A DNA stretch of 64,000 nt from Longicatena caecimuris. GTDB lineage: Bacteria > Bacillota_I > Bacilli_A > Erysipelotrichales > Erysipelotrichaceae. Below the pieces are notes generated by a model, which saw only the letters and a list, made by a program, of their open reading frames with translations, ran no database searches and was not told the DNA's origin. Shown piece by piece: positions 23,105 through 55,362 of the stretch. The stretch lies in the NCBI RefSeq assembly GCF_004341945.1, contig NZ_SMBP01000008.1, positions 1 through 64,000 on the forward strand, given 5' to 3'. Both the position numbers and the translations under genes were made by a program. Every line of letters starts with the position of its first letter. The first letter of the stretch is position 1.

Positions 23105-23596
23105 ATGAAAAAGATATCGAATATATTATCTACGCTTCTACTGATTGTCGTCGTAATTCTTGCCTGCATCTTCTTCGTCCCAAGGCTGTTTGGTATACAG
23201 ACAATGGCCGTGTTGAGCGGAAGCATGGAGCCTCATTTTCATGTGGGTAGCTTAGTTTTTGTAAAAGATGCCGAAATCACAGATTTTGAAAAGGATGATA
23301 TCGTAACATTTAAGATTGGCAATGGAGATACTGTGGTAACGCATCGAGTGACGCAAGTGACAAAAAAAGGATTGAAAACTAAAGGCGATGCAAATCATAG
23401 TGAGGATGGAGGCTTGGTGACATCAGCGAATCTTGTCGGCAAAGCATTTTCCTTCTCCATACCGGTTTTAGGATATCTCGCTGTTTACATGAGCAGTCAA
23501 ACAGGAATCATTCTGTTGATAGGCGCAATCATCTTGGTCTTTGTATTGTCTTATATAGGAAGTCTGTTTGATAAAAAGGAGAAAGGAGCAAATTAA
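23105..23596 (+). CDS. sipW: SipW-type (ER-type) signal peptidase I
   Basis: A 163-residue membrane peptidase with an N-terminal membrane segment (about 8-28), the SGSMEP box (catalytic Ser40), THRV with His80 where ordinary bacterial signal peptidases have Lys, GDANHSED (Asp95 and Asp101) and a C-terminal membrane segment (about 130-155). The Ser/His dyad marks the ER/SipW class, which in Bacillus matures TasA and TapA. It lies 14 bases after the vWA gene and immediately before a run of TasA-like genes, its presumed substrates. Confidence 0.93.
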   Translation: MKKISNILSTLLLIVVVILACIFFVPRLFGIQTMAVLSGSMEPHFHVGSLVFVKDAEITDFEKDDIVTFKIGNGDTVVTHRVTQVTKKGLKTKGDANHSEDGGLVTSANLVGKAFSFSIPVLGYLAVYMSSQTGIILLIGAIILVFVLSYIGSLFDKKEKGAN

Positions 23597-23597
23597 C

Positions 23598-24257
23598 ATG
23601 AAGAATCTACATAAAAAAACACAATGGTTGATTGGTATTCTCATTCTTTTGTGTGTAAGTTGTGGAATAACGTTTGCCCTTCTTTCGCAAAAATCGCAGA
23701 CATCGGTAAATAACTTTACCGGGGGAGCGGCTATTGAACAGAAAGTGAATATCGCTATTCTTGAAAATGGCGCAACAACGCGTTATGAAGATGGTGAAGA
23801 AAATAATTTACATACCATTGGCAATGGTTCTTATGGAAAGGCAGTAAGCATTCAGAATGTGAATACTACAGAGTATCCGACAAAGGCTGCCTACATAAGA
23901 GTACGCTTTGTGACGGCTTTGAAAAATACGAGCGATGCGACTTACACCTACGATGATAAGGTTAAGGTCATTGCCACATTCAGTAATTCATCCTTGTGGA
24001 AATATGATGAGGCCACAAAAACGTTTTATTACACGGAAAAAGTAGCACCTGATGCCAAGACACAAGATTTGTTAAAAAGCGTGAAAGTTACGGATGTTTC
24101 ATCTGCATATCAAGTGGAAATTAAGGTCTTAGCAGATGCGATTGAAGCGGATCAGGCTACCATGAACAAGGTTTGGGGCATGGAGGATTTCAATGCTTTG
24201 CAAAAGCTTCCGACAACCCTTGATCTTATAAAGATGCAAATACCAAAGCAATCCTAA
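23598..24257 (+). CDS. SipW-dependent TasA/camelysin-like protein 1
   Basis: Start at 23598 after AAAGGAG, one base past the peptidase stop. The 219-residue protein has a signal region ending ITFALLSQKSQTSVNNFTGG-like, matching the pattern of SipW substrates (small residue, T/F/L, A, L/Y, then a short polar stretch and an N-x-F motif). The rest is a beta-rich domain with a closing segment VLADAIEADQATMNKVWG similar to other camelysins. No anchor is seen. It is the last gene of unit 1 and probably a fibre subunit or assembly partner. Confidence 0.82.
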   Translation: MKNLHKKTQWLIGILILLCVSCGITFALLSQKSQTSVNNFTGGAAIEQKVNIAILENGATTRYEDGEENNLHTIGNGSYGKAVSIQNVNTTEYPTKAAYIRVRFVTALKNTSDATYTYDDKVKVIATFSNSSLWKYDEATKTFYYTEKVAPDAKTQDLLKSVKVTDVSSAYQVEIKVLADAIEADQATMNKVWGMEDFNALQKLPTTLDLIKMQIPKQS

Positions 24258-24292
24258 ACACGCTTATTCGTGTATAAATAAGATAAGAAAGA

Positions 24293-24323
24293 AAGCCATA
24301 TCTAAGGAAGATGTGGTTTTTTT
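24293..24323 (+). terminator. terminator ending surface unit 1
   Basis: AAGCCATATC / GATGTGGTTT forms ten pairs (two G-U) around a 7-base loop and is followed by Ts. Confidence 0.7.
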
Positions 24324-24352
24324 CTAGAAAAAAATATAAAAATCTTTTTTCT

Positions 24353-24385
24353 TGTTACCATTATGTGACTACCTAAATGGATAAT
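24353..24385 (+). promoter_or_regulatory. SARP-type direct repeats and -10, unit 2
   Basis: TGTTACcattaTGTGAC: hexamers starting at 24353 and 24364, again 11 bp apart, one mismatch between them. GATAAT follows at 24380-24385, 10 bases after the second repeat. Confidence 0.65.
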
Positions 24386-24414
24386 AGGAGTGTCAAAAGA
24401 AAGGAGGTCACAGG

Positions 24415-25107
24415 ATGGGCATGAAAAAAACAATACATAAAGTAGCAATCGCAACGATTATGATAATAGCGTTATCCGCAGGAATGACATTTGCATTACT
24501 AAGTCATGTAACCGAAAGTGTTACGAATGTATTTGCATCTGATAAGAATTTGTCATTGGAACTGCGTGAACCACAGTGGGATGGCTATACATTTGATGAT
24601 ACCTACCCTACGGATATCCTTCCGGGTACAAGTGTAAAACCGGGTACGGAAAACAGCGGATTACAGATGGCTGAGAACTATCTGCCGGGGAATGTAATCA
24701 GTAAAGATCCCATGGTTAAAAACACAAGCGATGGTCTAAGTGAATGGGTTGCCATTAAAGTACAGTACTTTGATGAAAATGGTAAGGCAATTGGGAAAAC
24801 TGATTTCCAGAAAAAATATGCGAAAACCGCTTATCAAAACGATGAAGTTAATCCTAATTTCGTGAAAATTTCAGATCATGCGGCTATCGAAGAGTTATAT
24901 ATGTATACAAGAACATTGGATACAACTGCTGGTAAGAATATAACCGAACCGTTATTCTCATCCGTTATTGTAAATAAAGATTTAACACCAAACAGTAAGA
25001 ATATGTGGCCGACTTTTAGTATCAAGGTAACTGGCTATGCGGTACAAAGCGATGGAGTCAGCGAAGATGCAGCTAGGCAGGCATTAATTGAATTAGCAAA
25101 AGGATAA
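24415..25107 (+). CDS. SipW-dependent TasA/camelysin-like protein 2
   Basis: A 230-residue protein starting after a near-perfect AAAGGAGGT. The signal region ends MTFALLSHVTESVTNVFAS. The mature part contains EPQWDGYTF, a P-G-x-V-I-S-K-D-P motif (residues about 90-100) and KNTSDGLSEWVAIKV, the typical TasA core in which N-x-S and W/Y-V-A/R-V/I strands follow a PG-x-x-x-KDP turn. First gene of unit 2. It shares EPxWDG with the third gene of this unit, suggesting duplication. Confidence 0.85.
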   Translation: MGMKKTIHKVAIATIMIIALSAGMTFALLSHVTESVTNVFASDKNLSLELREPQWDGYTFDDTYPTDILPGTSVKPGTENSGLQMAENYLPGNVISKDPMVKNTSDGLSEWVAIKVQYFDENGKAIGKTDFQKKYAKTAYQNDEVNPNFVKISDHAAIEELYMYTRTLDTTAGKNITEPLFSSVIVNKDLTPNSKNMWPTFSIKVTGYAVQSDGVSEDAARQALIELAKG

Positions 25108-25130
25108 GGAAATCCTGGGAGGAAAGTAAA

Positions 25131-25913
25131 ATGAAAGCAAATAAAAAATTTTTCGGTACAGCATTGGCATTAGCCTTAGCATGTGGTGTTGGCATTGGAG
25201 CAACACTTGCGTATTTAAACCATGTGACAGAAGATAAAGTCAATACATTTACAAGTAGCAAGGATATTCAAACGGAGATTACCGAAACAGAATTCCATGA
25301 CGATATCGCAAGCAATTATTATCCTGGACAGGTTATCACAAAAAATCCGGGCATGGTAAACAATAGTGATACAGAAAGCATTTGGGTAGCTGTGAAGTTG
25401 GATTATGTAGATAACGACAAGAAAAAAGTATCGGCAGCAGAGTTTGAAAAATATGCCAGCATTGTCTATGGTTCTGAAGGTAATTATCAGAATGGTGTAA
25501 ATCCTGCTTGGATCAAAATAGCAAGCAACAATACAAGTGATGTGTATATGTTTTCACAGCAGGTAGCACCTCATACTACAACAAATCCTACAGTGTTTGA
25601 TGCCGTAAAGGTAAATACCGGCATTAAAGAAGTAATTAAAACAGAGTATGAAACGACGACCATTTATGATAAAGATAAGAATCCGATTGATGTAAAAAAT
25701 GAAGAAGTTAATACTAGCGTTGATTATTACATCGCTAATGAGCAAGGTGATCTTGTAAAAACCGATGTCTTTACATTGCCAAAGTTTGAAGTTGTTGTAA
25801 AAGGCTTTGCGATGCAGGCAACCGGTGTTGATGAAGCAACAGCGAAAACGGAATTGGTTAATTTAGTAAATGCCCATTTGGCAGATGGCGAAAACAGCTA
25901 TACAGCCAAGTAA
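25131..25913 (+). CDS. SipW-dependent TasA/camelysin-like protein 3
   Basis: A 260-residue protein preceded by GGGAGG. Signal region GATLAYLNHVTEDKVNTFTS fits the SipW pattern. The mature domain keeps YYPGQVITKNPG and VNNSDTESIWVAVKL, and a closing VVVKGFAMQATGVDEATAK. An inserted loop of about 40 residues (KTEYETTTIYDKDKN region) distinguishes it from its neighbours. Probable fibre subunit, second in unit 2. Confidence 0.85.
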   Translation: MKANKKFFGTALALALACGVGIGATLAYLNHVTEDKVNTFTSSKDIQTEITETEFHDDIASNYYPGQVITKNPGMVNNSDTESIWVAVKLDYVDNDKKKVSAAEFEKYASIVYGSEGNYQNGVNPAWIKIASNNTSDVYMFSQQVAPHTTTNPTVFDAVKVNTGIKEVIKTEYETTTIYDKDKNPIDVKNEEVNTSVDYYIANEQGDLVKTDVFTLPKFEVVVKGFAMQATGVDEATAKTELVNLVNAHLADGENSYTAK

Positions 25914-25936
25914 GTTTATAGAAACAGGAGGAAAAA

Positions 25937-26614
25937 ATGATGAAGAAGAGAACAAAATTAGGAGTATCACTGGCTTTGGTCGGAATTCTTGCGGTAGGTG
26001 GAACCTATGCATATTTGCAGTTTCAAACTGGCCCAGTTGAAAATACATTTACCTTTGGTGACAATGTAAATGGGGAAATCAAAGAGCCACATTGGGATGG
26101 CGAATGCTTTGAAGGAGAAACATGTGATATTGAGGCTACAGGTAAACAGGATGCACAAAACTTTACCCCAGGTCAGACAATTGCGAAAGACCCTCAGTTG
26201 AAAAACACTTCAAACGTACCTGCATATGCTGCTGTTAAAATTGAATATACAGGTGTTGAAAATGATACAGCTGTGACATCTTATGCGGCATTAAACAAAT
26301 TCGCAGAAATTGATTGGAATACAAATGATTGGTATTTCAATGCCGATCACACACTGGCAATTTATAAAAAAGCTTTACATCCAGATGAAAACAATGTTGA
26401 AAATAAAACAGTTCCAGTATTTACGAATGTAAAAATCAACGAACATGCCGTTTATCCAGAAGCAGGGGAAACCAATGATCTGGCAATGCATCACTTCCAG
26501 ATAAATGTAAAAGGTTATTTTGCACAAGCGGATAATATGGATGGCATGGACAGCATCTTGGCAGTGAAAACAGTATTTGAAGATTTTAAAGATTTTGAAG
26601 CTATTAACAAATAA
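25937..26614 (+). CDS. SipW-dependent TasA/camelysin-like protein 4
   Basis: A 225-residue protein after CAGGAGG. Signal region GGTYAYLQFQTGPVENTFTF. The mature part has EPHWDGECFEGETC, with two Cys nearby that could form a disulfide, FTPGQTIAKDPQLKNTSN, and a closing VKGYFAQADNMDGMD. Third of unit 2. Residues around EPxWDG match protein 2 of the cluster. Confidence 0.85.
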   Translation: MMKKRTKLGVSLALVGILAVGGTYAYLQFQTGPVENTFTFGDNVNGEIKEPHWDGECFEGETCDIEATGKQDAQNFTPGQTIAKDPQLKNTSNVPAYAAVKIEYTGVENDTAVTSYAALNKFAEIDWNTNDWYFNADHTLAIYKKALHPDENNVENKTVPVFTNVKINEHAVYPEAGETNDLAMHHFQINVKGYFAQADNMDGMDSILAVKTVFEDFKDFEAINK

Positions 26615-26636
26615 ATGAGAAAAGGAGAAAATGAAG

Positions 26637-27263
26637 ATGGTGAAAAATAAAAAAATGCTCGCGTTAGCATTCATTGGTGTATTAGCAGTTGCAGGCATTA
26701 CAGGAGGTACTTTGGCATACTTTACGGATTCAAAGGTTGCAGAAAATACGATTACGATGGGGGATGTCGATATTAATTTAGAAGAGCCTGAATATGATAA
26801 GAATCATCCGGATAAAGAAATTACGGATGTAACACCTAATCAGGTTATTGAAAAAGACCCTACGATCACAATCAAAGAAGGCTCTAAAGCAGCCTACATT
26901 CGTTGTAAGATTAATGTAACAAGTGATGATGAAACCGCATTGCCTGCTGGCTATGCAGAGGCTTTGATTGCCAATACAAATATGGATATGACATTATGGA
27001 AAAAAGGCGCTGATGGCTATTATTACTATAAGAATAAAGTGGAACCTGTAGCACCAAATAATACGGTGAAATTCTTTAGCGAAGTTAAGATTCCAGAAAC
27101 ATGGGGCAAAGAAATGGCTAATCGTTCCATCAGCATGGATGTTACAGCAGAGGCTATTCAGGCCGATAACTTTACACCGGCCATGGATGAAGATGGATTC
27201 ATTACGGGTTGGTTCATGAGTGATGGTACAACTCCGGTAACGCCTGATAATTATAACAATTAG
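26637..27263 (+). CDS. SipW-dependent TasA/camelysin-like protein 5
   Basis: Of two ATGs, 26637 is 9 bases from AGGAG while 26631 is only 3. The 208-residue protein carries the clearest signature of the family: GGTLAYFTDSKVAENTITMG followed by DVDINLEEPEYD, close to Bacillus TasA/CalY. The core has TPNQVIEKDPTI and AAYIRCKINV, closing with MDVTAEAIQADNF. Last gene of unit 2. It is the best candidate for the main filament protein. Confidence 0.9.
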   Translation: MVKNKKMLALAFIGVLAVAGITGGTLAYFTDSKVAENTITMGDVDINLEEPEYDKNHPDKEITDVTPNQVIEKDPTITIKEGSKAAYIRCKINVTSDDETALPAGYAEALIANTNMDMTLWKKGADGYYYYKNKVEPVAPNNTVKFFSEVKIPETWGKEMANRSISMDVTAEAIQADNFTPAMDEDGFITGWFMSDGTTPVTPDNYNN

Positions 27264-27275
27264 GTAAGGGTACAT

Positions 27276-27317
27276 AAGGGAACGCATAGGACAAATCGTT
27301 ATGGCGTTTCCTTTTTC
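27276..27317 (+). terminator. terminator ending surface unit 2
   Basis: GGGAACGC-ATA pairs with TAT-g-GCGTTTCC, followed by TTTTT. Confidence 0.65.
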
Positions 27318-27391
27318 GATAAAATAGAATTCACAGAAAGAACAATGCATCATCAAAAACATCGTAATATTTTACATGTATCTATTAGCTT

Positions 27392-27424
27392 TGTGACTTG
27401 TCTGTGACTTTTGTTTACTATAGT
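27392..27424 (+). promoter_or_regulatory. SARP-type direct repeats and -10, unit 3
   Basis: TGTGACttgtcTGTGAC: identical hexamers at 27392 and 27403, 11 bp apart. TACTAT (27416) or TATAGT (27419) lies 7-10 bases further on. The sequence after the repeats (TTTTGTTT) resembles that of unit 1 (TTTGTTTT). Confidence 0.7.
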
Positions 27425-27463
27425 ATATATGTAGAAAGGTGTAATCGAACAGGAGGGGTAGCA

Positions 27464-28105
27464 ATGAAGAAAAAAGTCTTACTTGCAATAGCAGCTCTTC
27501 TTTTATTGGTTTTTGTATATCAAGGTTCCTTGGCTTTTTTCCGTAAAGAAAAAGGAGTCAGTACTCCTATCAGTGCGAAGACACTTGGTATCGAATTAAT
27601 TGATCATACAGATGATACAAGAGCAGAAATGACAGCTGAAGGCTATACCTTTAAAAACGTGATGCCCAATGATGCATTGCATCGTGAAGTATGTGTGAAG
27701 AATGTAAAAGAAAAGAATTTATATGTGAGAATCACCGCAACACGTTACTGGAAAGATCGTGATGGCAAAAAAGTAAAGGGTAGTGATGCATCCTTAATTC
27801 AACTGGTGACAGCGCAACCAGAAAATTGGATTATTTTGGATGATGGCAAAGCAAGCAATCATGAAATAGTATATTTCTATTATAAGAAACCCATTTTGCC
27901 ACAAGATCAATCTGATAATGTAATTGATCGTATTGTGTTAAGTGAAGATATTAAAGGTGAAGAATATCAGGAATATCAGGCTTACCTGCATTTGCAGGCA
28001 GATGCTATTCAAGATGTCGTTGCACAAGAGGCTATTTTAGCTGAATGGGGAATTGAAGCTACTTTTGATAAGCAGGGCAATATCACTTCCATTGAAGAAC
28101 AGTAA
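27464..28105 (+). CDS. SipW-dependent TasA-like protein 6 (divergent)
   Basis: Start at 27464 after AGGAGGGG. The 213-residue protein has a signal region QGSLAFFRKEKGVSTPISAK, a diverged version of the SipW pattern, then NVMPNDALHREVCVKNVKEK and LYVRITATRYW, the same PN/PG turn and strand order as the other TasA-like proteins. First gene of unit 3, so it travels with the two anchored proteins and may join the fibre to them. Confidence 0.78.
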   Translation: MKKKVLLAIAALLLLVFVYQGSLAFFRKEKGVSTPISAKTLGIELIDHTDDTRAEMTAEGYTFKNVMPNDALHREVCVKNVKEKNLYVRITATRYWKDRDGKKVKGSDASLIQLVTAQPENWIILDDGKASNHEIVYFYYKKPILPQDQSDNVIDRIVLSEDIKGEEYQEYQAYLHLQADAIQDVVAQEAILAEWGIEATFDKQGNITSIEEQ

Positions 28106-38138: not shown

Positions 38139-38270
38139 ATGAATAGAACAGAGATGTTTTTTTCTTATGAAGAAAAAGATTACGTATGTTCTACGCAATC
38201 TAGTGAAAAGTATTGGCTGATGCAGATGGCACTAGATGAACAGGGAAGTGGTTTATGTGATATCCCTTAA
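38139..38270 (+). CDS. small 43-residue protein, part of the mobile element
   Basis: ATG at 38139 follows AAAGGAG by 10 bases. The product starts [17 protein letters not shown] and ends GSGLCDIP. I do not recognise its function. A broken piece of the same gene is present at 30834-30878 in front of the TOPRIM pseudogene. Its last 18 bases overlap the convergent collagen-like gene, so this may be a truncated form and the right edge of the island. Confidence 0.6.
38158..38202. repeat. 45-bp direct repeat, right copy
   Basis: 43 of 45 positions identical to 30834-30878 in the same orientation. It lies inside the small gene 38139-38270. The two copies enclose the AT-rich island. Confidence 0.85.
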
Positions 38271-39101
38271 TTTAATAATCGTCAATGTTAAAGTACCCTC
38301 GGTAGCTCTTGCATTGGCGTTAAACGTAAGGAAGAAATCACTTGCAGAAATCATACGTATGATAAAGGTGTTAGAGCCATAGGCACTTGTATTATCAGCG
38401 GCATTCATAAAATAAATGGCCGTTTCAATATGGGGAGCACCATTATAGTATGGTGTTATCTGCATATAGCCTTGTGGATTTAACAGGGCAGATACGTGAT
38501 AGGATATGACATAATAACCGGGTTCTATCACAAGATTTGTATCGGAAATTTGGCGAATCTGACCAGTGTCATCTTCCGTAAGTGTGCCAAAAGGGATGCG
38601 TGTGGCATTGGTGAAGCTGGCAGCAAAAGTGATGAAGCTGGCAAATGCAATTTCAGGCAGTATACCCGGCAAGCCTTGTGGAATGCCAAATTCTAAGGCG
38701 ATGCCATCTGGAGTTATGCTGGAAGTAACACTTGCTAAAGAGCCAGGTGCTAAAGTTGTTGTACCAATCACTTCAACTTGAGGCAAAGGCCCTGTCGCGC
38801 CTGTTTCTCCTATAGGTCCGGTAGCTCCGGTATTTCCAATAGGTCCGGTTGCACCGGTAGGTCCAGTAGCTCCGGTGTTTCCAATAGGTCCGGTTGCACC
38901 AATAGGTCCAGTAGCTCCGATGTTTCCAATAGGTCCGGTTGCACCAGTAGGCCCAGTAGCTCCGGTATTTCCAATAGGCCCAGTTGCACCAGTAGGCCCA
39001 GTCGCACCGGTCGCACCGGTTGGTCCTATAGGAGGGATTCCATCATCACAACAGCAAGGACACGGCGGACAACATTCGCAATTCCAATTTGTGTATTTCA
39101 T
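38253..39101 (-). CDS. collagen-like protein with BclA/C1q-like C-terminal domain
   Basis: A 282-residue protein after GGAGGTAAAGT. The first 20 residues are Cys-rich ([14 protein letters not shown]). Residues about 25-110 are perfect Gly-X-Y triplets, mostly GATGPTG and [10 protein letters not shown], with Thr in place of hydroxyproline. The last 135 residues form a beta-rich domain ([20 protein letters not shown] ... TLTLTIIKL) like the C-terminal trimerising domain of BclA exosporium glycoproteins. The Thr residues are likely O-glycosylation sites. A sigmaK-like promoter lies upstream, suggesting expression late in sporulation. It should form a trimeric surface filament. Confidence 0.88.
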
Positions 39102-43879: not shown

Positions 43880-45436
<1,557 letters not shown>

Positions 45437-45734
45437 TTTATCACCTCGCCGCATGGATTTTGAATATCCGTCGTATCCTATGCGCTTACTTGCAAAATGG
45501 CATAAGCAAGTGCCTAGTTTAGAAGGATATCAATGAAAACGTGAGATACAACTATGTTTTGCTGTATCAGACAACTGTAAAAAAGGCTTTTCATTACGCG
45601 CGTTACTTGTGGAAAAGGCATTTTCTTATAATGAAGTTTCACCTCTTTTCTTTTTATCCAACGTATACTATGCAAAACAGGAAATGTTATATGGTGTATC
45701 TTATCAGGGATGTCTGTTACTTTTCCAAATAACC
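45437..45734. other. upstream region of the large collagen-like gene
   Basis: On the minus strand CATAGGATA (45482-45474) matches a sigmaK -10 (CATANNNTA), but the AC of a sigmaK -35 is not at the right place. An inverted repeat ACTTGC/GCAAGT (45487-45510) lies just upstream. No gene is seen to 45734. Confidence 0.35.
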
Positions 45735-49997: not shown

Positions 49998-50549
49998 ATG
50001 AAAGAAAAGTGGTTACTACATAAAATTCGCCATGGCGATATGGCCGCGTTGGATACCTTTATCACCCAAGTATATCCAACTATTTACGCCTTTGTTTATC
50101 GTAAGATGCAGGGAGATGATAGTGCGAAGGATATTACCCAAGAAGTATTCTTGCGTTTTATTCGTTATTTGCCAACCTATCATGAAGAGGGGAAGGTGAT
50201 ACATTTTCTATACCGCATTGCCAGTAATCTTTGTGTGGATGCTTACCGCAAACAAAAACTACACCTTATGGAAGACAGCGAGGCTTGGATGAATGGTCTG
50301 GGGGATGATATTGATGTACATGAAAGCATTTTAAAGCAATGCGCACAGGAAACATTACTGTATAACATTGGAAAGTTACCGCTGCCCCAACAGGATGTGA
50401 TCCTATTGCATTATTTCCATCAACTTACTTATCGTGAAATCGCACAAGTGTATGATATGCCAATATCCAGTGTAAAATCCAGGCATAAAGCAGCTTTAGC
50501 AAAGCTGTATCAAATGATGAAAGGAGAAAGACAAGATGAAAACAGATAA
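49998..50549 (+). CDS. ECF-type RNA polymerase sigma factor
   Basis: A 183-residue protein. Sigma region 2 is at about 20-90 (DITQEVFLRFIRYLPTYH, YRIASNLCVDAYRK) and region 4 at about 120-175 (PLPQQDVILLHYFHQLTYRE, IAQVYDMPISSVKSRHKAAL). It should direct RNA polymerase to its own promoters, probably including this operon. Its stop codon overlaps the next gene by 14 bases; that gene may be its membrane partner. Confidence 0.92.
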   Translation: MKEKWLLHKIRHGDMAALDTFITQVYPTIYAFVYRKMQGDDSAKDITQEVFLRFIRYLPTYHEEGKVIHFLYRIASNLCVDAYRKQKLHLMEDSEAWMNGLGDDIDVHESILKQCAQETLLYNIGKLPLPQQDVILLHYFHQLTYREIAQVYDMPISSVKSRHKAALAKLYQMMKGERQDENR

Positions 50550-51234
50550 ACCTCATATTTCACAGGATGCTTTATACGATACGTTGGCGGCTTGTCGTAA
50601 TGAATGGCAGAATCAGCAAATGAAAACACCATATAAAAATGAGCTCTTGCTGCGTTTTATGCATATGGAACTAAAAAGCTATATCCGCATGTCTTTTCTC
50701 GGATTATGTATATGTCTTGCAGGCAGCATCATGTTCAGCAATACAATCTTTGTTGTTTGTGGCTATATGTTTTTAATGGGCAGTTGTTTTTTATTTGAAC
50801 TCTATCGGCGAAAGTATTATCAGACACAAGAAATCATGGCACCTGTTTATCTCAATGATGGCAGAGTATTACTTTTTAAGATGGCCGGTATTGCGGTATG
50901 GGAAATAGTAGAATTCATCATATTGTGTTTGGTCTTATATGTTATGGACAAACTGGCGCTGGCGGAAGTTTTGTTGTATGGATTCTTACCGATTTTTATT
51001 TTACAAAGCTTATTGATTGTATTCATGACCAAATTAAATACGCTATATAAAGCAGGAAGTGCTTATGTGTTATCGTTTGGTATTTATGTAATCCTTATAC
51101 AAAGTTTAGATGTATTGTTGTTTGTAAACGCCATACAGCTATTGGTGGCAGCCGTGGTCAGCATCATCTTATATTATTTGATGTTGCTAGTGAATTATCG
51201 TATGAAAACAAGGAGGACGATACTATGGAATTAA
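50536..51234 (+). CDS. membrane protein co-translated with the sigma factor
   Basis: A 232-residue protein overlapping both neighbours (14 bases upstream, 10 downstream). The first 50 residues are polar, followed by six hydrophobic segments. Its place directly after an ECF sigma gene is the usual place of an anti-sigma factor, but the six-segment layout is unlike classical single-pass ones. It could also be a third subunit of the transporter. Family not recognised. Confidence 0.6.
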   Translation: MKTDKPHISQDALYDTLAACRNEWQNQQMKTPYKNELLLRFMHMELKSYIRMSFLGLCICLAGSIMFSNTIFVVCGYMFLMGSCFLFELYRRKYYQTQEIMAPVYLNDGRVLLFKMAGIAVWEIVEFIILCLVLYVMDKLALAEVLLYGFLPIFILQSLLIVFMTKLNTLYKAGSAYVLSFGIYVILIQSLDVLLFVNAIQLLVAAVVSIILYYLMLLVNYRMKTRRTILWN

Positions 51235-52097
51235 CGTTGGAACATGTGGATAAATCATTTAAACAAATTCATGCCGTACGAGATGTTACCTTACAGCTTG
51301 GTAAAGGTGTTCATGGATTATTAGGCGCAAATGGCAGTGGCAAAACGACATTGATGCGATTAATATGTGGCTTGATTCCTCTTGATAAAGGCAGTTTGCA
51401 TTTTATGGATATAAATGCGCTGAAACAATATGATACATATGCAAGTTATCTTGGCTATCTGCCACAGCATTTCGGTTATTATCCACATTACAGTGTCTAT
51501 GATTTTCTCTCCTATATGAGTATTTTGAAAAACATGTCTAAAGAATATAGTGAACAGCGTATAGAAACACTTTTAGAAAGGCTAAATTTGCAGTCACATA
51601 AGCATAAGAAGCTCCGTCAATTATCTGGTGGTATGTTACGTCGTGTGGGGATTGCCCAAGCCTTATTGAATGAACCTAAGCTGTTGCTGTTAGATGAGCC
51701 AACGGCAGGTCTGGACCCTAAAGAAAGAATTATCTTTCGTAATCTGATCGCCTCCTTATCGCAAGAATGTTGTATCCTGTTATCTACCCATATTGTAAGT
51801 GATGTAGAAACGATTGCAGATGATATTCTTGTCATGAAAGAAGGTAGTATCTTACTGCATGATACCGTTGCTAATCTCTTGACCTATATGCAGGGGAAAG
51901 TATGGGAAATGGTGCTTCCTGCAAGCGAAGCAATTGCTCTTTCTGATAAGTATTGCATCGTAAAACAGCATACCATGCAAGATGGTGTGCATCTGCGTTT
52001 TATAAGTGATACACAAAGTTATCCGAATGCGAAATTAGCAATTCCCGATTTAGATGATTTGTATCTTTATTATTTTCAGGATGGTGAAACCGTATGA
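51225..52097 (+). CDS. ABC transporter ATP-binding protein
   Basis: A 290-residue ATPase: Walker A GANGSGKTT, signature LSGGMLRRVG, Walker B LLLLDEPTAGLD, H-loop STHIVSD. It belongs to the CcmA/BcrA group that exports lantibiotics, bacitracin or lipids. Overlaps the membrane protein gene by 10 bases and the permease gene by 4. Confidence 0.93.
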   Translation: MELTLEHVDKSFKQIHAVRDVTLQLGKGVHGLLGANGSGKTTLMRLICGLIPLDKGSLHFMDINALKQYDTYASYLGYLPQHFGYYPHYSVYDFLSYMSILKNMSKEYSEQRIETLLERLNLQSHKHKKLRQLSGGMLRRVGIAQALLNEPKLLLLDEPTAGLDPKERIIFRNLIASLSQECCILLSTHIVSDVETIADDILVMKEGSILLHDTVANLLTYMQGKVWEMVLPASEAIALSDKYCIVKQHTMQDGVHLRFISDTQSYPNAKLAIPDLDDLYLYYFQDGETV

Positions 52098-53560
52098 TGC
52101 GTTTATTAAAAAGTGAATATCAAAAACTAGGGAAACGAAAATTTACGGTTGTATTGTTAATAGCTTTATTTGCTTATAGTGGCTATCAGATTTATCAGAC
52201 TTATCATGCAACTGCAGCATCTGAAATAATGGCAATGACTTATGAGACAACAGATCATCAAAAAGTTGCAAACGGTTTAGCATATTATCGTTATGCCGAT
52301 GAATACCTACACCAGTATGCAGGGCCCTTTAATGAAGATACCATTCAGAAAATGAAGGAAGATTATCAAAAAATCATGAAGAAGTATCAGCGTAAGAATA
52401 TAGATACGGAAAAGATGGAACGCATATACGGTAAAGATTGGGAGTCTTTCTTAAAGGGCGCCGCTACCAGTAAGTATATGGAAGAAGATGTTCGAAAACG
52501 AATGGAACGTATGAACATTGATGGATATGGTATGGATGATAAAGGTAATTACTTTTTCAACGTTTTTTATAAAGAAGATCCGGTATATATGCTTTATCAA
52601 CGTATTTACACAGGGCATAGTCAATATGCCACAAGTCATGAACTTTATGGTGAGAACGCAGGACAAATATCTTCTGAGATAGTTGATATTTCTGTAAATC
52701 AATATCTGCCTCGTTTCTTAAAAGGGGCAGGAGCAGAAAAAGAGTTGTTTGAAAATGCGATGCATAGTGGTGAGATAACGAACGCGTCTTCGCGAATTGC
52801 GAAAAAGTATCAAGAAGAATTACAACAAGGACAGCTTCAATATGACAGTACGGTAGGTAATCATTTATTGTTAACAAATTTGAATAAAATTGACTTTGTA
52901 AGTTTACTAGTTATCATAATCGTATTATCGGATATGTTTGCACAAGAAACACATTATAAAACTGATCAGATTCTCATACCGACAAAAGAAGGAGCGAAAC
53001 GCTTGGTGATTGCCAAACTATTATGTGGCATGTCTTTAGCAATCGGTATTCTATTCCTTCAGTTATGCATGATTGTTTTGGCAGCATTCATCTTTGTTCC
53101 TCTGCGATCCTTAGATCTCACGGTATTTCCACAAGCAGATGCCGGGTATTATGAAATGATACGGTTCATATTTACCTATCGTGAGGTTCTCGTTAGTACC
53201 TTTTTCCTTACCCTGATAGCAGCTATGGCGATAGGTATGGTAACAATGACCATTTCTTATTTCTCTAAGAATCGATTTGCGACAGCGATTCTTATGCTCG
53301 TATTTATGATTTTATCATTTGCCATTAACTTCAGACAAGATGGATGGTTGGCTTATCTTTGTTCTCTTTTCCCATCCCATATGTTGGAGGTAAACACCTT
53401 TTATAGTTGGATGAATGGTGGATTTTCACCTTTCATAATCTTTATGGATATGATGATCCCTTGGAAAAATATTGTTTGTGTCCTCTGGATAATACTGATG
53501 ATCATCCTGTCTGTTATTATCATACAGCGGTATCAAAAACATTTCGTAAAGAGTCATTAA
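52094..53560 (+). CDS. ABC-2-like permease of the sigma-factor operon
   Basis: A 488-residue protein with a membrane segment at about 15-35, a large external domain (about 40-265) and five or six segments in the second half. The layout resembles NatB/ABC-2 permeases with an extended first loop. It partners with the upstream ATPase. The four genes overlap end to end and should be made as one unit; a role in response to envelope stress or antibiotics fits but is inferred. Confidence 0.82.
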   Translation: MMRLLKSEYQKLGKRKFTVVLLIALFAYSGYQIYQTYHATAASEIMAMTYETTDHQKVANGLAYYRYADEYLHQYAGPFNEDTIQKMKEDYQKIMKKYQRKNIDTEKMERIYGKDWESFLKGAATSKYMEEDVRKRMERMNIDGYGMDDKGNYFFNVFYKEDPVYMLYQRIYTGHSQYATSHELYGENAGQISSEIVDISVNQYLPRFLKGAGAEKELFENAMHSGEITNASSRIAKKYQEELQQGQLQYDSTVGNHLLLTNLNKIDFVSLLVIIIVLSDMFAQETHYKTDQILIPTKEGAKRLVIAKLLCGMSLAIGILFLQLCMIVLAAFIFVPLRSLDLTVFPQADAGYYEMIRFIFTYREVLVSTFFLTLIAAMAIGMVTMTISYFSKNRFATAILMLVFMILSFAINFRQDGWLAYLCSLFPSHMLEVNTFYSWMNGGFSPFIIFMDMMIPWKNIVCVLWIILMIILSVIIIQRYQKHFVKSH

Positions 53561-53678: not shown

Positions 53679-53706
53679 TTGATTAAAAGCGGATCCTATG
53701 TTAAAT
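53679..53706 (+). promoter_or_regulatory. putative promoter of the peptide/regulator pair
   Basis: TTGATT (53679-53684), 16-base spacer and TTAAAT (53701-53706). Moderate match; it lies 33 bases before the peptide gene. Confidence 0.4.
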
Positions 53707-53738
53707 TAAGACACAGATATATAGGAGGAATAGTTATT

Positions 53739-53903
53739 ATGAAAAAAGTTATGAAATTTATGATGGTTTTAGGGCTAGTCTTAACTCTGGCACCAAGTAT
53801 GGGAGGCCATGTAAACAATAAACGTTGCGGATTAAATCCTAAAACAAGTAAAGATTGTGCACATGAGGTAATGCCTGCTAATTCAGAACATTTAGGTTTA
53901 TAA
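53739..53903 (+). CDS. 54-residue exported peptide, candidate signalling pre-peptide
   Basis: ATG at 53739 follows AGGAGG. The product has a positively charged N-terminus, a hydrophobic core (about 5-18) and a likely export signal ending near APSMGG. The exported part contains two cysteines (RCGLNPKTSKDC) and ends MPANSEHLGL. The next gene, an HTH-TPR regulator, starts one base after its stop. Small exported peptides beside such regulators are pheromone precursors in RRNPP systems, and the C-terminal residues are usually the active part. No related peptide is known to me. Confidence 0.65.
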   Translation: MKKVMKFMMVLGLVLTLAPSMGGHVNNKRCGLNPKTSKDCAHEVMPANSEHLGL

Positions 53904-53904
53904 A

Positions 53905-55125
53905 ATGAACAGACATTTAGGTCCTATCTTTCGCTTACATAGAAGAGAATCTGGACTTCGACTGGCACAATTCAAGGAAATTGTGCCAGTTTCTAAATTA
54001 AGCGATTTTGAAACTGGGAAGAAAGATCTGACGCAGGAAACGGTAAGAAAGCTATATGCGATTATCGGCATGGAGTTTCATGCGATTGAAGATAATGCAA
54101 ATGTATCTATCATGGTTTGGAATCTGTTTACGGCAATTGTTAAATCAGAACCTACGGCAGACATATACAAAAAACTTTATCAACAGAAGTCCAGTGTACA
54201 ATTTCAAGGTGAATATATCATATGGTTGTTAGGTGTTTTTATTTATCGTGTATATCATGCAGAGGATGAATATTTATATGAAGAAGATATCAAAAGGCTG
54301 AATAAATACATTGATTATTTAGAACCGGAACTTCAGAAATTGTTTTATGATACTGCTGGTGGCTATTATATCAGTGCTTATGATTATAAAAATGCAATTA
54401 TGTATTTTGATAAGGCTATACATAGTAACAATATAGAAATACAGGCTATGGCATTTTATCATAAGACGATCATATTGGTAGAACAAGGCTATTATGTGGA
54501 AGGCTTAGATTGTATCAAAAGAGCCATCAGTTTATTTAATCAAAATCTGTATTTAAAGCGTGGTGTCATGTGCAATGTATTGTTAGGAAACTTGTATTCA
54601 GGATTGAATGATTACGCAATGGCTGAACAAGTATACGTACAATGTTTAAATGCTATGAGACAACTTTCATTACCTAATATGATTGCCATCTTTAATAATC
54701 TCACTTGGATAAGTTTGTTATGGGGTAAATATGATAAAGTATTACAATATGCAAATGAGGCAGAGAAACATAGCAAAACCCATGAGATGATGTATTTTTA
54801 TAAATCCTATGCTTATCATAAAATGAATATGCGTAATGAAGCAAAAGAACAAATACGTCAAGCAAAATTGTATTGCACAAAATCCTCTGAATATCGCATT
54901 GCGATGATTGATGCATTTGCGACTTATCTCTATGAAACGAAACCATTTGAATTAAAGGAAAAGAAGTTTTTAAAAGCCTATAAGTCTGCCAGAAAGGCAA
55001 ACGATATACAGGCTGCTATCTTTGTGTTAAATCTCTTATCAGATCTATGTGAGTCCTATATGAGAAAAGAAAAAGAATTATTTTATAAAACAGAGATGAT
55101 AAAATTATACAAAATGAGAAGATGA
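53905..55125 (+). CDS. RRNPP/Rgg-like HTH-TPR transcription regulator
   Basis: A 406-residue protein: an Xre-type HTH at about 5-60 (RLHRRESGLRLAQFKEIVPV, then SKLSDFETGKKDLTQETVRK) and a long helical domain (about 75-400) of TPR-like repeats such as AFYHKTIILVEQGYYVEGLD. This is the layout of PlcR, Rgg and PrgX, which bind short imported peptides in the TPR groove. The pre-peptide-like gene one base upstream is the likely partner. Uptake would need an oligopeptide permease elsewhere; none is in this window. Confidence 0.82.
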   Translation: MNRHLGPIFRLHRRESGLRLAQFKEIVPVSKLSDFETGKKDLTQETVRKLYAIIGMEFHAIEDNANVSIMVWNLFTAIVKSEPTADIYKKLYQQKSSVQFQGEYIIWLLGVFIYRVYHAEDEYLYEEDIKRLNKYIDYLEPELQKLFYDTAGGYYISAYDYKNAIMYFDKAIHSNNIEIQAMAFYHKTIILVEQGYYVEGLDCIKRAISLFNQNLYLKRGVMCNVLLGNLYSGLNDYAMAEQVYVQCLNAMRQLSLPNMIAIFNNLTWISLLWGKYDKVLQYANEAEKHSKTHEMMYFYKSYAYHKMNMRNEAKEQIRQAKLYCTKSSEYRIAMIDAFATYLYETKPFELKEKKFLKAYKSARKANDIQAAIFVLNLLSDLCESYMRKEKELFYKTEMIKLYKMRR

Positions 55126-55173: not shown

Positions 55174-55362
55174 TTAATCTTCGGGTAGGATATAAAGGCG
55201 GTAATTATGGGCTGCCTTTTTTTCCATATATAACAAAAAGTCAGGCTCTGAAACGGTCCTGACTCTTTGTTGTAAATGATATAAAACATATAGTGGGAAG
55301 TTAGTGCTTGTGGTTGTAAAGTTATAGAGGAAATAAGCCATGTGTAGAAAGGAAGTACACAT
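55174..55362 (-). CDS. possible 62-residue protein or structured small RNA
   Basis: A minus-strand frame that starts 27 bases after a strong promoter's expected start site. The first half is hydrophobic, the second holds VRTVSEPDFLLYMEKKAAHN. No good ribosome binding site (only GAGAG). Two hairpins, 55232-55271 and 55195-55222, lie inside the frame, so the transcript might instead be a small RNA. Confidence 0.35.
   Translation of the reverse strand: MCTSFLHMAYFLYNFTTTSTNFPLYVLYHLQQRVRTVSEPDFLLYMEKKAAHNYRLYILPED
55195..55224 (+). terminator. terminator-like hairpin after the regulator gene
   Basis: AAAGGC / GCCTTT stem with a long loop, then TTTTT. It is 70 bases after the regulator stop codon. 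Confidence 0.45.
55232..55271. other. long hairpin
   Basis: AACAAAAAGTCAGG pairs with CCTGACTCTTTGTT (one mismatch) around a 12-base loop. It could fold on either strand. Confidence 0.6.
55340..55362. promoter_or_regulatory. palindrome at the start of the minus-strand transcript
   Basis: ATGTGTA-gaaaggaag-TACACAT, a perfect 7-bp inverted repeat about 27 bases inside the predicted transcript start. It could be an operator or a 5' hairpin. Confidence 0.45.

Follow-up and report, generated by a model that had tools for sequence, protein, structure and literature searches.

A candidate peptide-first RRNPPA-type signalling pair recurring in Erysipelotrichales

We analysed a 64,000-nucleotide stretch of the Longicatena caecimuris genome (hereafter the window), in which a short gene for an exported-type peptide immediately precedes a gene for an HTH/TPR regulator. 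Our reading, to which we assign a probability of roughly 0.7, is that the two genes form a peptide-first signalling unit of the RRNPPA type, whose pheromone would be cut from the C-terminal tail of the peptide. Sequence comparison of related loci supports joint inheritance of the conserved peptide gene and its HTH/TPR neighbour, with the peptide gene first. RRNPPA peptide signalling would then extend to Erysipelotrichales, mostly gut bacteria, with some of the loci lying in Dielma and Traorella. The main text of the family-wide RRNPPA surveys searched makes no mention of Erysipelotrichales.

Gene layout and propeptide anatomy

The features of the locus are collected in Table 1. The coordinates given for both reading frames in the initial annotation proved exact, with one base between the genes, and the peptide features that it had listed, namely an export signal, the end MPANSEHLGL and two Cys (Cys30 and Cys40), were confirmed from the sequence. 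A G-rich AGGAGG-like site stands at the same place in most related loci. The promoter candidate matches the consensus at 8/12 positions, under the limit of the promoter scan, and the search for a palindromic operator 5′ of the peptide gene returned just short, weak inverted repeats. Since a terminator follows the receptor gene and the terminator scan found no clear one between the two genes, they are most likely read as one transcript. The downstream neighbour of the receptor gene is a convergent PHP-type gene, and 180 bp upstream of the pair lies an operon (49998-53560) that encodes an ECF sigma factor, a membrane protein and the ATPase and permease of an ABC transporter; it is the only adjacent same-strand unit in the window.

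Table 1. Features of the peptide-receptor locus (window positions)
Feature	Position	Strand	Basis and remarks
54-aa propeptide gene	53739..53903	+	ATG 53739 to TAA 53903; leave-one-out profile; 18 clear relatives elsewhere
406-aa HTH + nine-TPR receptor/regulator	53905..55125	+	ATG 53905, stop 55125; Pfam, AlphaFold2, fold matches
Ribosome-binding site AGGAGG	53723..53728	+	Read from sequence; 10 nt 5′ of peptide start
Possible promoter TTGATT, 17 nt, TAAATT	53679..53707	+	By eye; weak
Intrinsic terminator of the two-gene unit	55194..55219	+	9-pair stem, then T-run
Predicted Sec signal peptide, residues about 1-22, MKKVMKFMMVLGLVLTLAPSMG	53739..53804	+	Charged start (N-terminal KK), hydrophobic stretch, model helix 2-16
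Conserved Cys/His core (H24, C30, G31, C40, H42)	53808..53864	+	Alignment of 19 peptides
C-terminal tail VMPANSEHLGL, predicted pheromone source	53868..53900	+	Position-specific pattern, weak correlation with receptor similarity

Elsewhere in the window, a run of similar exported proteins of ~210-260 aa (23568-28105; FALLSH.../TLAYFTDS type, camelysin/TasA-like) adjoins a signal peptidase-like ORF, and two collagen-like proteins with GPTGATG repeats are encoded on the minus strand (38253-39101 and 43880-45454).

The propeptide falls into three parts: a signal peptide, a conserved core of the form HxHxxxCG(x)nC and a variable C-terminal tail of ~11 aa. The signal peptide was predicted from hydropathy and inspection, with its end only approximately placed; the peptide model has a pLDDT of 63 and is of low confidence beyond the helical signal segment. 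Conservation is strongest in the core, not in the tail, and H24, C30, G31 and C40 are invariant in 19 peptides. These core residues could serve as metal ligands or form a disulfide. Cys30 and Cys40 lie outside the predicted pheromone, as part of a conserved Cys/His pro-region. Neither Pfam nor NCBIfam gave a domain above cut-off for the whole peptide family, PHROGs gave none for the window peptide, and this pro-region, placed in no curated family, would mark the subfamily off. In a related genome, a large surface protein (1,636-aa frame; L083 / L040, G098:C17, about 1312 and 1516) carries the motif C-x-H-x-H-D-x-x-C-G-Y ... C twice, just behind its signal peptide. The occurrence of the Cys/His region both in the propeptides and near the start of this protein raises the testable question of how the pheromone precursor is held and matured.

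Most members have a tail of 11 residues, with [VI]-x-P-[LYFK]-x-x-[DE]-x-x-[PG]-x as its pattern. The tails include VMPANSEHLGL in the window, VTLLNDEHAPN and VQPLGDEHVPY in Dielma, and VEPYQDKWPDD and VEPYNKKWPDE in the Traorella group. The positional order of the tails in 18 loci was reached in 0/5000 shuffles.

Recurrence of the pair

When 272 genomes from the same family were searched with the regulator, 16 had matches. At 7 matched loci outside the window a signal-peptide ORF of 50-60 aa lies directly 5′ of the regulator, and the core HxHxxxCG(x)nC is common to these 7 peptides and the window peptide. With peptide profiles, 19 clear loci (E <= 4.5e-7, a count that takes in the loci used for building the profile) and one divergent locus (L063) were found in two families of Erysipelotrichales. 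In all 19 clear loci and in L063, the gene that follows directly, at -26 to +85 nt and in the same orientation, is of the HTH/TPR type. Because peptide sequence alone retrieved 11/19 loci, the pairing is not an artefact of the search. When the window peptide was omitted from the profile, its ORF still ranked first among 1,336 six-frame segments with an E-value of 1.7e-10 (the next being 0.57), and removal of the signal-peptide region from this leave-one-out profile left it at 4e-6.

The distribution of the pair is narrow in the collections searched. No match at E <= 1e-4 was found outside Erysipelotrichales in a 392-genome sample of the phylum, and a degenerate pattern, covering one core type only, matched nothing but Dielma fastidiosa and two Traorella assemblies among 84,980 species. 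A single-protein scan of genome contigs with the receptor yielded no match. Relatives of the window receptor were not found in phages, plasmids or viral contigs, by which an origin from a mobile element or phage (AimR arbitrium) was rejected. The receptor of the relative L067 had no match in phages and gave a single partial match in the plasmid collection, over 20% of its length.

Close receptor relatives without such a peptide gene adjoining them occur in one genus (L003, L005-L007, L019). The initial annotation had held that homologous regulators with no small peptide gene nearby would speak against the pair; some such regulators do exist, and the pair is kept in 19 clear loci and the divergent one. 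As orphan receptors are frequent in known RRNPPA families (PMC9765709), the regulators that lack a peptide do not decide against the pairing.

Several loci show variations of their own. In L095 (G272), one of the 11 loci retrieved by peptide sequence alone, the peptide gene is intact, and the receptor gene that follows it (+167 to +2048 from the peptide start) is interrupted by an insertion. The ORF of this insertion resembles an IS200/IS605-type transposase. The HTH of the receptor in L096 (G277:C5, +133 to +1317 from the start of the peptide match) seems strongly degenerate or missing, as in Rap. A second, paralogous receptor without a peptide of its own stands directly behind the first in L093, where it is convergent, and in L097, where it is in tandem. 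The peptide encoded by L063 (G205:C45) and L062 (G204:C204), HEEDPDCTCKCDECTTEECECPC, is divergent, rich in Cys and acidic in its tail; it is followed by an HTH/TPR gene at 17 nt in L063 and by the contig end in L062.

Receptor fold and its relation to the tail

The presence of an HTH-TPR regulator directly downstream of the peptide gene, as first annotated, is borne out by Pfam, in which TPR_12 exceeded the curated cut-off and HTH_31 was weak, and by an AlphaFold2 model. This model, made with 13 family members, is an all-helical TPR structure with a mean pLDDT of 90.6 and helices over 65-405. VIA-align placed Rap first (Z 28.5, 336 residues aligned), with NprR at 25.4 and AimR further down at 22.4, where it stands among eukaryotic TPR proteins (LGN-type proteins score about 23 and below); in a plain Foldseek E-value ranking, Rap, NprR and AimR are intermixed with designed and eukaryotic TPRs. 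The receptor-family profile matched RapF at E 1.6e-10 and NprR at 5e-12, in the latter case along the entire protein. In a published structural phylogeny, Rap and NprR fall in a nine-TPR clan, and PlcR, Rgg and PrgX in one with five TPRs (PMC12700828).

The model places the receptor with Rap, NprR and AimR among the nine-TPR folds of the RRNPPA receptors. The regulator had been annotated as of the PlcR/Rgg/PrgX type. In view of the Rap/NprR matches and this clan split, its branch is corrected to the nine-TPR one, nearest Rap, NprR and AimR; the five-TPR branch was excluded, as helices 65-405 all align with nine-TPR Rap/NprR. R219 is conserved in 16/19 and N265 in 15/19 receptors, both on inner TPR helices. 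RapF holds its peptide via Arg223 and the family-wide Asn227, which anchors the peptide backbone on the concave face of the TPR domain (PMC3601957). Arg219 and Asn265 resemble these anchor residues in type, and we infer by analogy that they may be equivalent in position; too few Rap sequences for residue mapping were found in genomes of the class.

It had also been proposed that alignment of related loci might disclose a short peptide co-varying with the regulator. Tail similarity correlated with receptor similarity at a Mantel r of 0.26 (p 0.03), or 0.23 (p 0.04) without the closest pair, a weak correlation resting on 17-18 pairs, whereas core similarity did not track the receptor (r 0.01) and the last 7 tail residues alone gave no significant correlation (p 0.15-0.19). 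The result is suggestive of a tail that weakly tracks the receptor.

Possible mechanism, alternatives and known systems

The locus can be compared with the marks of RRNPPA systems. The published criterion for an RRNPPA propeptide is a length of 10-100 aa with a secretion signal (PMC10075063), and the window propeptide has 54 aa with a charged start, a hydrophobic stretch and helix 2-16 in the model. For a receptor of 250-500 aa with TPR repeats, there are the 406 aa, TPR_12 and the TPR model; for adjacency and conserved pairing, the one-base gap here and the pairing in 19 clear loci and one divergent; and for the family fold, Rap (Z 28.5) and NprR (25.4) at the head of the list, with the NprR profile E-value of 5e-12. 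The Opp importer that the initial annotation had suggested looking for is present as a complete oppABCDF-like operon on contig C18. The OppC-like permease of this genome (L105:11058-12911) has 617 aa and includes a stretch reading like RCC1 repeats (VYAWGKDTDG). The pair initially proposed is thus supported in part, by its conservation, a patterned tail and the Opp operon, and corrected in its branch assignment.

The steps that follow, from export and cleavage through import and binding to regulation, are extrapolated from the RRNPPA family. The propeptide would be exported by Sec and lose its signal peptide. The Cys/His core, metal-bound or disulfide-linked, might then be a pro-region that keeps or presents the precursor until a peptide of ~5-11 residues is released from the VMPANSEHLGL tail by a protease, either secreted or at the surface. 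The freed peptide would accumulate, re-enter through Opp and bind the concave face of the TPR superhelix, altering DNA binding by the HTH domain, and the probable targets of the regulator are its own promoter and genes close by. No target gene shared by all loci was found beside them, the neighbours differing from locus to locus; secreted small proteins (L058, L059, L066) and ABC transporters turn up repeatedly. At L064, the ATPase of an ABC exporter scores just below the cut-off of a lactococcin-972-type bacteriocin exporter model.

Other readings have to be weighed against such a signalling unit. The whole exported Cys/His peptide of ~32 residues might itself be the working molecule, as an extracellular metal-binding or disulfide mini-protein or a small effector, with the HTH/TPR gene encoding no more than a co-transcribed regulator that senses something else. 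This would suit a core that is conserved above all other parts of the peptide and shows no variation with the receptor, and a motif that recurs in a large surface protein just after its signal peptide, and a TPR fold by itself is no proof of peptide sensing; we nevertheless consider it unlikely, as the best matches of the receptor are peptide-sensing RRNPPA receptors and the tail has a pattern of its own (0/5000 shuffles) while being variable, as a specificity code should be. An RRNPPA-type pair could also act within one cell, sensing itself or the status of export or secretion rather than other cells. Production of peptide and receptor from one operon would agree with this; the predicted signal peptide of the precursor, the complete Opp importer in the genome and the way in which known relatives work, after export and re-import (PMC10075063), make it distinctly improbable. 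We give almost no probability to the small ORF being a frame without function, or one arisen by chance, beside an ordinary HTH/TPR regulator: several homologous regulators do lack such an ORF alongside, yet it is conserved in 19 loci of two families, is recovered by the leave-one-out profile at 1.7e-10, and comes with a ribosome site and a conserved gene order.

The peptide-first signalling unit, which we prefer, could be elaborated into metal- or redox-gated quorum sensing, in which the His/Cys core, metal-bound or disulfide-linked outside the cell, would control release of the C-terminal pheromone. We regard this gating as quite unlikely; were it true, the signal would report cell density plus metal or redox conditions in the gut. 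About 20 peptide-receptor pairs are ready as a test set.

Among known systems, Rap-Phr of Bacillus provides the top structural matches (Z up to 28.5), and Phr is likewise an exported propeptide that yields its signal from the C-terminus; Rap, however, has no HTH and acts on other proteins, whereas the window receptor has an HTH. In Rap-Phr the receptor gene comes first, and we know of no Cys/His core in Phr. AimR-AimP, the arbitrium system of Bacillus phages, shares the HTH and nine-TPR fold (Z 22.4) and differs in that the window receptor is chromosomal and was not matched in any of the phage, plasmid and viral collections searched. PlcR-PapR, Rgg-SHP and PrgX are also HTH and TPR peptide receptors with small peptide genes, but they have five TPRs (PMC12700828) and the window receptor aligns over its full length with the nine-TPR branch. 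NprR-NprX of the Bacillus cereus group resembles the window pair in combining an HTH and nine-TPR receptor with an adjacent exported propeptide (Z 25.4, profile E 5e-12); unlike it, the window pair is peptide-first and has a Cys/His core in its propeptide, and its receptor shares ~15% identity with NprR.
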